This document shows, in pieces, positions 12,337-33,935 of a DNA stretch of 35,437 nt. This DNA comes from Dehalococcoidia bacterium (GTDB lineage Bacteria; Chloroflexota; Dehalococcoidia; Tepidiformales; Tepidiformaceae), in assembly GCA_007118095.1 (NCBI GenBank), contig SKSF01000194.1, positions 1-35,437 on the forward strand, in the 5' to 3' direction. The translations under genes and the position numbers were made by a program. Under the pieces are notes generated by a model. The model was not told the origin of the DNA. It searched no databases and saw nothing but the letters and a program-made list of their open reading frames with translations. Each line of letters opens with the position of its first letter. Positions within the stretch are counted from its first letter, which is position 1.

Positions 12337-12825
12337 TTATGGGACGGCCGGTGATGGTTCGTCGTGACCTTCGCCGGGGCCGTGTGCACGGCCGTGGAGG
12401 GTCTGGGGCCGGAGTCGCCAGGCTATGCGGCCAAGGCGCTGGAAGCGGGATTCGAGTTCCTGTTGGGCCCACGCGGGAGCGTCAGCGAGCCGGTCGCCGA
12501 GGTCCACGGCAAAGGACATCGCTTCGGCGGGATCGTCGATGATCTCGAATGCGCCGTTGCCCGATACGCTGGCCCATTCCCAGGGGCCCGTTTCGACTGT
12601 GCTGTCGATCTGGAATCCGACGTGCGGGTTTTCGCCGGCCATCCGGGTTTTCCGCCCGGGGGTGGTGAACCCGTTGAGGGCGTTGTCTTTCCAGACGTAG
12701 AAAACGGGGACGACGAAGACTTCACCGCCTGCCTGGAACGCGAGACGGACGATGCGCTCGCTCGCGAGGACGATGTGCGTCTCTTCGGGGGTCAGGTCGC
12801 GGAACCCCATGTCCGTATGATGCAC
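12337..12825 (-). CDS. Pyridoxamine 5'-phosphate oxidase-like (PPOX class) FMN-binding protein
   Basis: A 162-residue split-barrel flavin-type protein. MGFRDLTPEETHIVLASERIVRLAFQ leads into VFVVPVFYVWKDNALNGFTTPGRKTRMAGENPHVGFQIDS, the usual PPOX barrel with the TPGRKTRM segment in the FMN/F420-phosphate-binding position. WASVSGNGAFEIIDDPAEA is the next conserved strand-turn. Members include F420- or FMN-dependent reductases, heme-degrading proteins and stress proteins; the exact function is unknown. The C-terminal 25 residues are low-complexity and His/Pro-rich. Start choice is uncertain: GTG 12825 opens the frame and ATG 12810 begins MGFRD; neither has a strong ribosome binding site. Confidence 0.83.
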   Translation of the reverse strand: MHHTDMGFRDLTPEETHIVLASERIVRLAFQAGGEVFVVPVFYVWKDNALNGFTTPGRKTRMAGENPHVGFQIDSTVETGPWEWASVSGNGAFEIIDDPAEAMSFAVDLGDRLADAPAWAQQELESRFQRLGRIAWRLRPQTLHGRAHGPGEGHDEPSPAVP

Positions 12826-20937: not shown

Positions 20938-21843
20938 ATGAGCACGATCCTGACGCATCTCCAGCGGCTCGAGGCGGAGAGCATTCACATCATGCGCGAG
21001 GTGGCCGCCGAGGCCGAGCGGCCGGTGATGCTGTACTCAATCGGAAAAGACAGCAGCGTGATGTTGCACATCGCGCAGAAGGCGTTCTACCCGTCGCCGC
21101 CGCCCTTCCCACTGCTCCATGTCGACACGACGTGGAAGTTCCGCGAGATGTACGAGTTGCGCGACCGGATGGCGGCGGAAGCGGGGATGGAGCTGCTGGT
21201 CCACATCAACCCGGAAGCGCAGGAGATGGGGATCAACCCGTTCACGCACGGGTCGGCGGTGCACACGGATATCTGGAAGACGCAGGGACTGATCCAGGCG
21301 CTGGACAAGCATAAGTTCGACGTGGCGTTTGGCGGCGCGCGGCGCGATGAGGAGAAGTCGCGAGCGAAGGAGCGGGTGTTTTCGTTCCGGAACGCGCAGC
21401 ACCGCTGGGACCCGAAGAATCAGCGGCCGGAGCTGTGGTCGCTGTACAACACGCGGAAGAACCATGGGGAAAGCATCCGGGTGTTCCCGCTTTCGAACTG
21501 GACCGAGCTGGATGTGTGGCAGTACATCTACCTGGAGCAGATCCCGATGGTCCCGTTGTACCTGGCCAAGGAGCGGCCGGTGGTGGAGCGCGACGGGACG
21601 TTGATCATGGTGGATGACGACCGGATGGATCTGGCAGAGGGCGAGGAGCCGCAGATGCGCAAGGTCCGGTTCCGGACGCTGGGGTGCTACCCGCTCACGG
21701 GGGCTATCGAATCGGAGGCGGAGACGTTGCCAGAGGTGATCCAGGAGATGCTGCTGGCGAAGACGTCGGAGCGCCAGGGCCGTGTGATCGACTTCGATTC
21801 GAGCGGTTCGATGGAAAAGAAGAAGCAGCAGGGTTACTTCTAA
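20938..21843 (+). CDS. cysD: Sulfate adenylyltransferase subunit 2 (CysD)
   Basis: CysD carries the catalytic ATP pyrophosphatase activity that makes adenosine 5'-phosphosulfate (APS) from ATP and sulfate, driven by the GTPase CysN. This 301-residue protein is full length. It has the PP-loop [13 protein letters not shown] near residue 33, [31 protein letters not shown], and the family blocks [17 protein letters not shown] and [33 protein letters not shown] and the C-terminal [10 protein letters not shown] are also typical. ATG 20938 gives the standard [20 protein letters not shown] start. The stop overlaps the next start by one base (TAATG), indicating translational coupling with cysNC. Acts in the cytosol. 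Confidence 0.97.
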
Positions 21844-23744
21844 TGGCAAGCTCCGACCTGATTGCGACGGATATCAAAGGGTACCTGGACGCGCACGCAC
21901 GGAAGGACTTCCTGCGCTTCATCACGTGCGGGAGCGTGGACGACGGGAAGAGCACGCTGATCGGCCGGCTGCTGCATGAGTCGCAGCTCATCTTTGAAGA
22001 CCAGCTCGCGGCACTGGAGGCGGATTCGAAGCGGGTGGGGACGCGCGGCGGCGAAATCGACTACGCGCTGTTGCTCGACGGGCTGCAGGCGGAACGCGAG
22101 CAGGGCATCACGATCGATGTGGCGTACCGGTTCTTCTCGACCGACCAGCGGAAGTTTATCGTGGCGGACACGCCAGGGCATGAGCAGTACACGCGGAATA
22201 TGGTGACCGGTGCGTCGACGGCGGACCTGGCGGTGATTCTTGTGGACGCCCGGAAGGGCGTGCTGGTCCAGACGCGGCGGCACAGCTACCTGGCATCGCT
22301 GCTTGGCATCCGGCACGTGGTGCTGGCCGTGAACAAGATGGACCTCGTGGAGTATTCGGAAGAGCGGTTCCGGGAGATCGAGGCGGAGTACCGGGGGTTT
22401 GCCAAGGGACTGGGTGTGGAGGATGTGGTGTGCATCCCGATGTCGGCGGTGCACGGGGACAACGTGGTGACCGTTTCGGAGCGGACGCCGTGGTACCAGG
22501 GACCGGCGCTGATGGAACACCTTGAATCGGTAGAGGTGACGGACGCACGGCAGGCAACGCCGTTCCGGTTGCCGGTACAGTGGGTCAACCGCCCGAGCGC
22601 GGACTTCCGGGGGTTCTCCGGCACGGTGATGAGCGGGATGGTGCAGCCCGGGGATCGCGTGCGGATACTGCCGTCAGGCCGGGAAAGCACCGTGACCCGC
22701 ATCGTGACCCTTGAGGGCGACCAGCCAGAGGCGGTGGCGCACCAAGCGGTGACGCTGACGCTGGCGGACGAGGTTGACGTGAGCCGGGGCGATGTCCTCA
22801 CGGCCGCGCAAGCCCCGGCAAGTGTCGCGGACCAGTTCGAGGCGACGATTGTATGGATGGCGGAGGAGCCGCTGTTGCGTGGGCGCGGGTACCTGATGAA
22901 GATCGGGACCGCGAGGGCAACGGCGACCGTTTCGCCGGTGAAGTACCAGGTGAACGTGAACACGCTCGAGCAGCAGCCGGCGGAACGGCTGGAGCTGAAC
23001 GAGGTGGGAGTCTGCGAGCTCGAGCTGGACCGTGCGATCCCCTTCGACCGGTACGACGAGAACCCGGAGATGGGGAGTTTCATCCTGATCGACCCGATCA
23101 GTAACGACACGGTCGGGGCGGGGATGCTGCGGTTCGCGCTGCGCCGGGCGGAGAATGTGCACTGGCAGGCCGTGGACATCGACAAGCAGTCGAGGTCGGA
23201 CCTCAAGGGGCAGCAGCCGTGCATTGTGTGGCTGACGGGCCTTTCGGGGTCGGGGAAGTCGACGATTGCGAACCTCCTGGAGCGCAAGCTATATGCGCTG
23301 GGGCGGCATACGTACCTGCTCGACGGGGACAATGTGCGGCACGGGTTGAACAAGGACCTGGGCTTCACAGCACAGGACCGGGTGGAGAATATCCGGCGGA
23401 TCGGCGAAGTGGCGGCGCTGATGGTAGACGCCGGGCTGATCGTGATCACGTCCTTCATCTCGCCGTTCCGGGCGGAGCGACGGATGGCGCGATCACTGGT
23501 GAACGAGGAAGAGTTCGTCGAGGTGTTCGTGGACACGCCGGTGGAGGTCGCGGAAGAGCGGGATACGAAGGGCCTCTACGCAAAGGCGCGACGGGGGGAA
23601 ATCACGAACTTCACGGGCATCGATTCGCCCTATGAGCCGCCGGAGCACGCCGAGGTCCACATTGAGACAACGCGCTTGACCGCGGAGGAAGCGGCGGACG
23701 CGATCATCGCCTCGCTGCGGGAGCGCGGGATTATCCGCGTTTAA
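21843..23744 (+). CDS. cysNC: Fused sulfate adenylyltransferase GTPase / APS kinase (CysN-CysC)
   Basis: A 633-residue bifunctional enzyme. The N-terminal CysN part (about 1-440) is an EF-Tu-like GTPase driving APS formation: P-loop GSVDDGKS (30-37), [18 protein letters not shown] and NKMDLV, followed by two beta-barrel domains. The C-terminal CysC part (about 455-633) phosphorylates APS to PAPS: P-loop GLSGSGKS (466-473), [25 protein letters not shown], and [19 protein letters not shown]. The fusion resembles NodQ/CysNC proteins. The start is the ATG sharing one base with the cysD stop; the longer upstream frame runs inside cysD. A strong hairpin directly follows the stop, so cysD-cysNC is a two-gene operon supplying PAPS for sulfate reduction or sulfation. 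Confidence 0.97.
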
Positions 23745-32315: not shown

Positions 32316-32325
32316 CGGAGGACCG

Positions 32326-32856
32326 ATGAGCATCACGTACCTGGACCCGTCGTCGGAGGCGACATTTGCGGACGAGCCCTATGCTCTGGCGACTGACACC
32401 CGGGCGGCGGGGCTGCGGGTGGGATTGCTAGCCAACTCCTTCCCGGGGGCGGTCCCGTTCATGGCGCAACTCGAGACAGCGTTGCGGGAGAAGCTGCCAG
32501 GCGCCACCTTTATCCACTTCCAGAAACCGGGCGTGACCCGGGTCCGGGACGAGCTTGCTGACGAAATCGGCGAGCAGTGCGACGTTTCCGTCGCGGCGTG
32601 GGGTCATTGAGGGAGCTGTACGTCCGGCACCGTGCGTGACGGCATACTCCTTGCACAACGAGGTCTCCCATCAATCGCGCTGGTGACCGAACGGTTCTGG
32701 GAACAGGGTCACCAGGTAGCATTCTCGGCCGGGATGACGGGAATCCCGCGGGTGAAGCTTCCGCATCCGCTTGCCGGGGCGACAACGGAACAGCTTCTCG
32801 AAGCGGCGCGGAAGGCTGTCCCGGACATCGTCGCAGCATGGGAAGGATGGGGCTGA
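32326..32856 (+). CDS. UGSC-family selenoprotein, TGA at 32608 read as selenocysteine
   Basis: A 176-residue protein when in-frame TGA (32608-32610) is read as Sec95. The frame before the TGA encodes GLRVGLLANSFPGAVPFMAQ and GVTRVRDELADEI, ending DVSVAAWGH. Directly after it the frame reads GSCTSGTVRDGILLAQRGLP, SIALVTERFW and VAFSAGMTGIPRVKLPHPLA. Joined, this gives Sec-Gly-Ser-Cys, the name-giving motif of the UGSC (seleno)protein family, in which other members have Cys-Gly-Ser-Cys. The two pieces lie in the same frame, so no frameshift is needed. A stem-loop follows the TGA. GGAGG lies 3 bases before ATG. The stop overlaps the next ATG by one base. The Sec/Cys pair suggests redox chemistry, but the reaction is unknown. 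Conventional calling would report two fragments. The alternative is a nonsense mutation. Confidence 0.87.
32608..32650 (+). promoter_or_regulatory. Candidate bacterial SECIS stem-loop after the Sec codon
   Basis: After TGA, GGAG (32612-32615) can pair with CTCC (32647-32650), enclosing an upper helix GTACG (32618-32622) with CGTGC (32631-32635, one G-U pair) and the 8-base loop TCCGGCAC. The apical loop begins 13 bases after the TGA and contains GG. Bacterial SECIS elements lie immediately after UGA inside the coding region, so the location fits. Alternative pairings exist, so the fold is tentative. Confidence 0.5.
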
Positions 32857-33935
32857 TGCAGGCAACGCGTTACCAGGCGGAAGACGAGGCGGTGGCAGCG
32901 GAGGAACTGTTCGAGTCCGGGTGGACCGACGGGCTGCCGGTGGTGGTGCCAACGCCCGAGCGTGTAGGGATGATGCTCGCGACCGGTGGGCTCGACCCGG
33001 ATGCCGTGCTGGGCACTGTGGGGCCATTGAACGGGACGGCGACGGTGGAAAAGGTCGCAGTGAACGCGGTCATGGCGGGGTGCCAGCCAGACTGGTTCCC
33101 GGTTGTCATCGCCGCAGTGCGGGCGGTGAGCCGGCCCGAATTCGATATCGGCGAAATCCAGAGCACGACACATGGACTGGGGCCGGTGGTGGTGGTGAAC
33201 GGCCCGGCGCGGGAGATATGCGGCGGGATAGCTTCCGGGTGGGGCGCGCTGGGGGCGGGCCATCGACCCAATGTCACCATAGGGCGGGCGCTGCGGCTCG
33301 TGTTGATGAACATCGGTGGCGGGCGGCCCGGGGTCACTGACATGGCTTTGCACGGGCAGCCGGGAAAGATTGCCTGTTGCTTCGCCGAGGCGGAGGAAGA
33401 GAGCCCGTTCGCTCCGCTCCACACCACATTCGGGTTCGCTGCAGAGGACAGCGCGGTGGTGGTCGCAGGTGTCGAAAGCCCACACTCGGTCGTTGCGTCG
33501 CCGAACCGCGGTGACCCCGAGGCAGCCGAACGGCTGGTACGGGTGATCGGGCGATCCATCGCGAACGCGGGTTCAAACAACACGTATTTCGGGACCGGGA
33601 ATGTGCTGGTCGTGCTCAACCCGGACCATGCCCAGTTGCTCGCCGACTTCGGGTATACGCGCGAGTCCTTGCGCGCCCGGGTTTGCGAGGAAGCGGTGAC
33701 GCCACGGGAGACGCTGGAGTCGTTCGCGCCGCTCAACCCGGTCCGGGGCGAAGAACCGCTGGTGCGGGCTATACGGGATGAACGGAACCTGCTGATCGCA
33801 GTCGCCGGGGGCACAGGTGTGTATTCGCAGGTGATGAACTCGTGGGGTGGCGGGACCTACGGCAACGTGGCAGTAGCACAGGAGATCGAGATCGACCAGG
33901 CGTGCGAGTTGCCCGGCACCGGGTACGCGCCCTAG
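32856..33935 (+). CDS. GWTDGLPVV-family partner protein of the UGSC selenoprotein
   Basis: A 359-residue soluble protein. The N-terminal signature ELFESGWTDGLPVVVPTPER is followed by TVEKVAVNAVMAGCQPDWFP, QSTTHGLGPVVVVNGPAREI, ATIG-type TIGRALRLVLMNIGGGRPGV, GKIACCFAEAEEESPFAPLH and TGVYSQVMNSWGGG. I recall this architecture beside or fused to UGSC domains in other bacteria; I know no biochemical function. A conserved Cys occurs in MAGC and a Cys pair in IACC. The start is ATG 32856, which overlaps the selenoprotein stop as TGATG; ATG 32838 is in frame but lies inside the preceding gene. The coupling suggests the two proteins act together at fixed ratio. No signal peptide is present. Confidence 0.82.
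   Translation: MQATRYQAEDEAVAAEELFESGWTDGLPVVVPTPERVGMMLATGGLDPDAVLGTVGPLNGTATVEKVAVNAVMAGCQPDWFPVVIAAVRAVSRPEFDIGEIQSTTHGLGPVVVVNGPAREICGGIASGWGALGAGHRPNVTIGRALRLVLMNIGGGRPGVTDMALHGQPGKIACCFAEAEEESPFAPLHTTFGFAAEDSAVVVAGVESPHSVVASPNRGDPEAAERLVRVIGRSIANAGSNNTYFGTGNVLVVLNPDHAQLLADFGYTRESLRARVCEEAVTPRETLESFAPLNPVRGEEPLVRAIRDERNLLIAVAGGTGVYSQVMNSWGGGTYGNVAVAQEIEIDQACELPGTGYAP

Follow-up and report, generated by a model that had tools for sequence, protein, structure and literature searches.

An in-frame UGA in a UGSC-family selenoprotein gene of a Tepidiformaceae bacterium, its conserved companion gene and sequence kinship with the GrdB/PrdB selenocysteine domain

Introduction

How should two short open reading frames be understood that lie in the same phase and are separated by a single TGA, when the reading of this triplet as selenocysteine (Sec) creates the motif UGSC? 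Such an arrangement is found on the forward strand of contig SKSF01000194.1 from a Dehalococcoidia bacterium (Tepidiformaceae; assembly GCA_007118095.1), which was analysed over its whole length of 35,437 nucleotides (the window) and which is one contig (C27) of a 3.2-Mb draft genome in 227 contigs that is 98% complete. According to a 2008 survey, the UGSC-containing protein is one of the selenoprotein families met most often in the ocean (PMC2398784), and a review of 2026 leaves its function open while grouping it with thioredoxin (Trx)-fold proteins (PMC13188914). The locus thus raises two questions: is the internal TGA a Sec codon of one gene and, if so, what might the resulting selenoprotein do?

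One gene across an internal TGA

The frame opens on the + strand with an ATG at 32326, preceded by a ribosome-binding site, GGAGG (32317-32321), that can be read directly from the sequence 4 nt 5' of this ATG. It remains open up to the TGA at 32608-32610 and continues beyond it to a second TGA at 32854-32856, which serves as the stop. Read through, the gene (32326-32856) has 176 codons with Sec at codon 95, and its 176-aa product contains the stretch ...AAWGHUGSCTSGTVRDG... around residue 95; the cysteine of the UxxC motif, C98, is nearly invariant. The original prediction that the two frames form a single gene is borne out by the match of the joined protein to the Pfam UGSC family PF24696, which spans the stop (residues 5-173, E=1.8e-42, 145.8 bits against a cut-off of 25). 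Each half also matches on its own, residues 1-94 before the TGA to profile positions 2-92 (1.3e-11) and residues 96-176 after it to positions 94-171 (2.8e-22). As these separate matches are in register, the halves are contiguous in one family, and a chance line-up of two adjacent open frames on this profile is negligibly likely, just as had been argued for the coincidence of stop and motif.

The gene is a real, ordinary member of a selenoprotein family that, as was also correctly stated at the outset, is already known (PMC2398784, PF24696, NF041046); because this knowledge dates from 2008, the surprise is much smaller than the first rating suggests. The window protein shares with the family a full-length match and Sec in the UGSC motif; Cys homologues exist there as well, and the 2008 survey reports fusion to a companion domain, 'Unknown_1' (PMC2398784). 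The protein belongs to a GHUGSCTSGTVRDG subfamily that scores under the curated cut-off of NCBIfam NF041046 (125 bits), so that automatic annotation may split the gene into two fragments. The window protein itself reaches 112.9 bits with this model; the relatives L087 (108.5) and L152 (77.7; from Xenophilus azovorans DSM 13620, with a Sec copy) likewise fall below the cut-off, and L002, L104 and L162 (a natural fusion in Bacillus dakarensis, also with Sec) lie above it. A search of the window against Rfam gave no match. Elsewhere in the window (20938-23744) lie sulfate-assimilation genes, encoding a PAPS reductase-domain protein (probably cysD) and a fused GTPase/APS kinase (cysNC).

Selenocysteine decoding in the host and its relatives

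That the host should decode UGA as Sec had been implied by the motif alone, and its gene content agrees: the same genome encodes SelA (429.7 bits, its gene broken off where a contig ends and the C-terminal part lying on a second one), SelB (308 bits, or 329 with in-frame neighbours), a tRNA-Sec with the anticodon TCA (UCA; 72.6 bits) and SelD. The selD gene is itself interrupted by a TGA (pattern CGGUASK); selenophosphate synthetase SelD belongs to the Sec machinery and is unrelated to UGSC as a protein, but both use an in-frame TGA in this genome. A second UGSC gene of the host (L002, C205:33083-33589, minus strand) also has the TGA within UGSC and encodes a protein 29% identical to that of the window; it is of the ALADUGSCTTCSVHD type (UxxCxxC, GrdB-like), and no companion gene adjoins it. 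The genome holds, in addition, a TGA-interrupted gene (AALLIPV-U-PFC) for a PrdB/GrdB-like selenoprotein (L171; C115, about 12413-12811 and beyond), and genes similar to it occur in related genomes of the family.

How well is the Sec column conserved? Across 38 genomes of the same family, exactly one TGA is present in each of the UGSC matches (37/37), and phylum-wide (400 genomes) a TGA occurs in all but a few. One UGSC-like match, L086, contains both a TGA and a TAG and may be a decayed copy. A profile of the companion protein encoded downstream (see below) led to 80 named loci from Actinobacteria, Proteobacteria, Chloroflexi, Rokubacteria, Firmicutes and others, and a UGSC gene lies within 4 kb in 71 of them. 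Column 95, which had been singled out for checking, holds Sec or Cys in these homologues; the earlier statement that other members carry Cys is right insofar as such members exist, but Sec is the rule and Cys rare, with TGA in 73 genes of these 71 loci and TGC in only four (from a Cryobacterium, a Sphingomonas, a Binatia and a Hyphomicrobiales genome).

SelB exceeds its cut-off in 19 of the 21 Sec genomes tested and in none of the four Cys genomes, and a strong tRNA-Sec (57 bits or more) is found in 18 of the former and again in none of the latter (L118, in which the UGSC codon was not seen, was left out of this comparison); such an association with codon type is what Sec decoding predicts. 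One Sec genome (L147) has neither SelB nor tRNA-Sec over threshold, perhaps owing to incompleteness, and in one of the Cys genomes (L106) a SelB-like match stays below threshold at 204.9 bits. A single-protein scan of the contig collection returned no match, probably because a lone sequence makes a poor pattern and because Cys codons are unlike TGA; the companion profile succeeded in its place.

Since independent genomes carry the TGA at the same column, sequencing error is excluded. A conserved in-frame UGA that alternates with Cys in homologues, together with SelA (split over two contig ends), SelB, tRNA-Sec and SelD in the host, is what is expected of a bacterial selenoprotein, and on this comparative evidence the internal stop of the window is a genuine Sec codon, U95 of the UGSC motif.

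A candidate SECIS hairpin

A bacterial SECIS is a hairpin immediately 3' of the UGA, the small apical loop of which contains a guanosine (PMC1088965). At 32624-32642 on the + strand, 14 to 32 nt 3' of the UGA, the sequence CCGGCACCGUGCGUGACGG could form such a hairpin, the stem of which would consist of CCG/CGG and CAC/GUG flanking a G-A mismatch, with guanosines inside the apical loop CGUGC (32631-32635), which begins after 20 nt from the UGA. In 10 subfamily orthologues, all 60 hairpin cells show standard pairing (60/60), and one pair has undergone a compensatory change, from C-G to U-A, in two closely related sequences. The codons GGC ACC GTG CGT GAC recur unchanged in nine Sec orthologues save for one CGT, synonymous sites elsewhere in the UGSC gene vary, and the Cys orthologue L094 has GCC ATC GTT CGC GAC at these codons, the conservation being lost. 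Folding of the hairpin region as a single sequence was not significant (z -0.08), so the case for the hairpin rests on comparison. A first hairpin-score test was dropped as evidence, some Cys genes also having beaten their shuffles. By comparison, then, the UGA is closely followed by a hairpin whose small apical loop contains G, in keeping with the described bacterial SECIS; given a single covarying pair and the insignificant single-sequence fold, this candidate is best called well supported, not proven.

Fold of the UGSC protein and its kinship with GrdB/PrdB

What kind of domain carries U95? An AlphaFold2 model built from 62 sequences (pLDDT 95.8) comprises five successive strand-helix units in which U95 opens the helix that follows strand 3, and the fold is thus predicted to be Rossmann-like (beta-alpha)5 and not the published 'Trx-like' one; the beta-alpha-beta-alpha-beta-beta-alpha order of thioredoxins, with UxxC after the first strand, does not appear in the predicted structure. 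Fold searches with this model returned only generic Rossmann-like matches (Z up to 10.9) across unrelated families, and they were left unused for function. Pfam matches of two UGSC members to carbonic anhydrase (best 0.007) were taken as chance.

The predicted fold bears directly on the proposal, going back to the 2008 ocean survey, that UGSC is a Trx-like thiol/selenol oxidoreductase whose redox-active UxxC would serve in disulfide exchange or detoxification. Although the motif and its nearly invariant C98 would suit this role, a (beta-alpha)5 domain with Sec after the third strand would not; no Trx family appears among the listed Pfam and NCBIfam matches of the 62 members, and sequence profiles tie UGSC to GrdB/PrdB instead, all of which makes the proposal an unlikely one.

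The tie to GrdB/PrdB emerges from several profile comparisons. Among the 62 UGSC members, NCBIfam matches go to TIGR01917 GrdB (30 members, the best at 1.1e-5), GrdF (19), TIGR01918 (11) and GrdH (9), and unrelated families match at most two of the 62; the window protein has no TIGR01917 match among those listed, and the match of L149 to this model (about 20 bits) falls in the Sec region. When the Sec domains of 19 GrdB/PrdB proteins, each translated across its own TGA, were aligned with UGSC by hhalign, the probability was 95.5% (E 1.4e-8) with Sec placed on Sec, versus 0.8% for a reversed decoy. With an HMM of the GrdB/PrdB domain, 39 of the 62 UGSC proteins were recovered at E<=0.01, and no match came from 62 reversed, 62 shuffled, 84 neighbouring and 60 companion proteins. 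The similarity covers about 70 residues around Sec at 12-15% identity, and both groups share a strand-U-helix-GIPTV pattern as well as UxxC, which in GrdB proper is UGTC.

By these measures the Sec domain of GrdB, GrdF, GrdH and PrdB (TIGR01917, TIGR01918, TIGR04483; PF07355) is a homologue of UGSC, which, with its Sec in register, falls within the GrdB/PrdB selenoprotein B superfamily, a link of which no statement was found in the literature searched. The similarity speaks for a shared origin of the Sec domain without implying that the reaction is the same. GrdB proper, recognized by TIGR01917 at 602 bits over its full length with the N-terminal domain, is something else: only about 50-70 residues match, and UGSC is a stand-alone domain of about 170 aa that lacks the long N-terminal part. 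It also differs from the GrdB system in having CoA, transport and organic-acid genes as neighbours in place of a Grd operon, and a partner that is not of the pyruvoyl GrdE type. That Pfam does not display the link may be due to the fact that matches to PF07355 (GRDB) end just before Sec (positions 344-347), perhaps because the source proteins of this family were truncated at the UGA. Glycine-reductase-like loci do occur in the same phylum (L208-L213, in genomes G205, G056, G305, G102, G229 and G287), where GrdB genes, those read through having their TGA at UGTC or UGSC, adjoin GrdE-like proteins.

The companion gene

The stop codon of the UGSC gene overlaps the ATG of the next gene as TGATG (32854-32858), and this gene (P0002, 32856-33935, + strand, about 359 aa; mechanical ORF start 32838) is on that account probably translationally coupled to UGSC. 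Throughout the phylum, and at most of the 80 named loci, a homologue of it accompanies UGSC, usually as the gene directly upstream or downstream and in 20 cases as part of a fusion; residues C82 and C181 are near-invariant, and comparison with Pfam and NCBIfam matched no family. A new element here is that the downstream gene is a conserved UGSC companion, sometimes fused to it, without a Pfam or NCBIfam family; it probably corresponds to the 'Unknown_1' of the 2008 survey (PMC2398784). A survey of neighbouring genes found TctC receptors (8/84), CoA-transferases, acyl-CoA dehydrogenases and two SelB genes, which suggests organic-acid metabolism; these neighbours are too mixed for a substrate to be named from them.

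Is the companion related to any known subunit? Homology to GrdE is unsupported (hhalign probability 0.19 against a GrdE-like profile), and sequence searches of solved structures with both UGSC and the companion gave nothing convincing. A fold search pointed to class I fumarase alpha subunits (E 3e-3, probability 0.77, TM 0.28) and to cyclic amide hydrolases; all these matches were set aside as weak, the best VIA Z of 5.7 belonging to unrelated proteins.

Could Sec be inserted, then, without any GrdB-type turnover, UGSC being a selenium-dependent carrier, sensor or metal-binding subunit of its companion? Such a role would accommodate a small domain that usually adjoins a larger conserved protein or is joined to it, the two near-invariant cysteines of the latter, and its slight resemblance to fumarase alpha subunits of class I, which bind an Fe-S cluster; that resemblance is, however, weak, and kinship with catalytic Sec domains favours a nucleophile, so that a carrier or sensor appears quite improbable. 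As for the view that the TGA simply terminates translation or stems from a sequencing error or a pseudogene mutation, which would leave a 94-aa product only, the draft state of the assembly (227 contigs) could be invoked in favour, but with the TGA kept at the exact column in dozens of species, a downstream half that is conserved and matches the family alone, a conserved SECIS-like hairpin and a full Sec machinery in the genome, it deserves hardly any credence.

Proposed function

An activated carbonyl group holds the substrate in both glycine and proline reductase, where the selenolate of protein B is believed to attack this substrate and so to give a selenoether that is then cleaved by a thiol (PMC10298544). 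By homology, UGSC is most likely a selenolate-nucleophile reductase subunit that works with its companion on a metabolic substrate. SelB with Sec-tRNA(UCA) would recode the internal UGA, aided by the downstream hairpin, to yield a Rossmann-like (beta-alpha)5 domain homologous to those of GrdB and PrdB (glycine/betaine/sarcosine and proline reductases), which would act together with the translationally coupled companion. Because of this homology UGSC should supply the selenolate. With the substrate bound and activated by the companion, U95 would attack a carbon of the substrate so presented, and C98 or an external thiol would resolve the resulting selenoether; through such a reductive cleavage the pair would take part in organic-acid or CoA metabolism. 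Since sequence comparison does not connect the companion with GrdE, which is the pyruvoyl-bearing partner of GrdB, its chemistry may differ, and the way in which glycine reductase activates its substrate may not hold here. Taken jointly, a UGSC selenoprotein made by hairpin-aided UGA recoding, with a Sec domain of the GrdB/PrdB type and Rossmann-like fold, and engaged in companion-paired reductive cleavage, is in our judgement a probable description of this locus, with appreciable room for error.

Implications

It is conceivable, though we would advance it only tentatively, that UGSC and its companion constitute a widespread class of two-subunit, sometimes single-chain, selenoenzymes of soil and marine bacteria, in which a Sec domain sharing its descent with GrdB/PrdB would be combined with a different activating subunit for reductive cleavage. 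If this is true, the activating subunit of the class is one not previously described. The tie to GrdB/PrdB, together with a defined though unnamed companion family, would turn 'function unknown' into a testable type of reaction, and it draws attention to a subfamily, marked by GHUGSCTSGTVRDG, that is likely to escape current annotation models.
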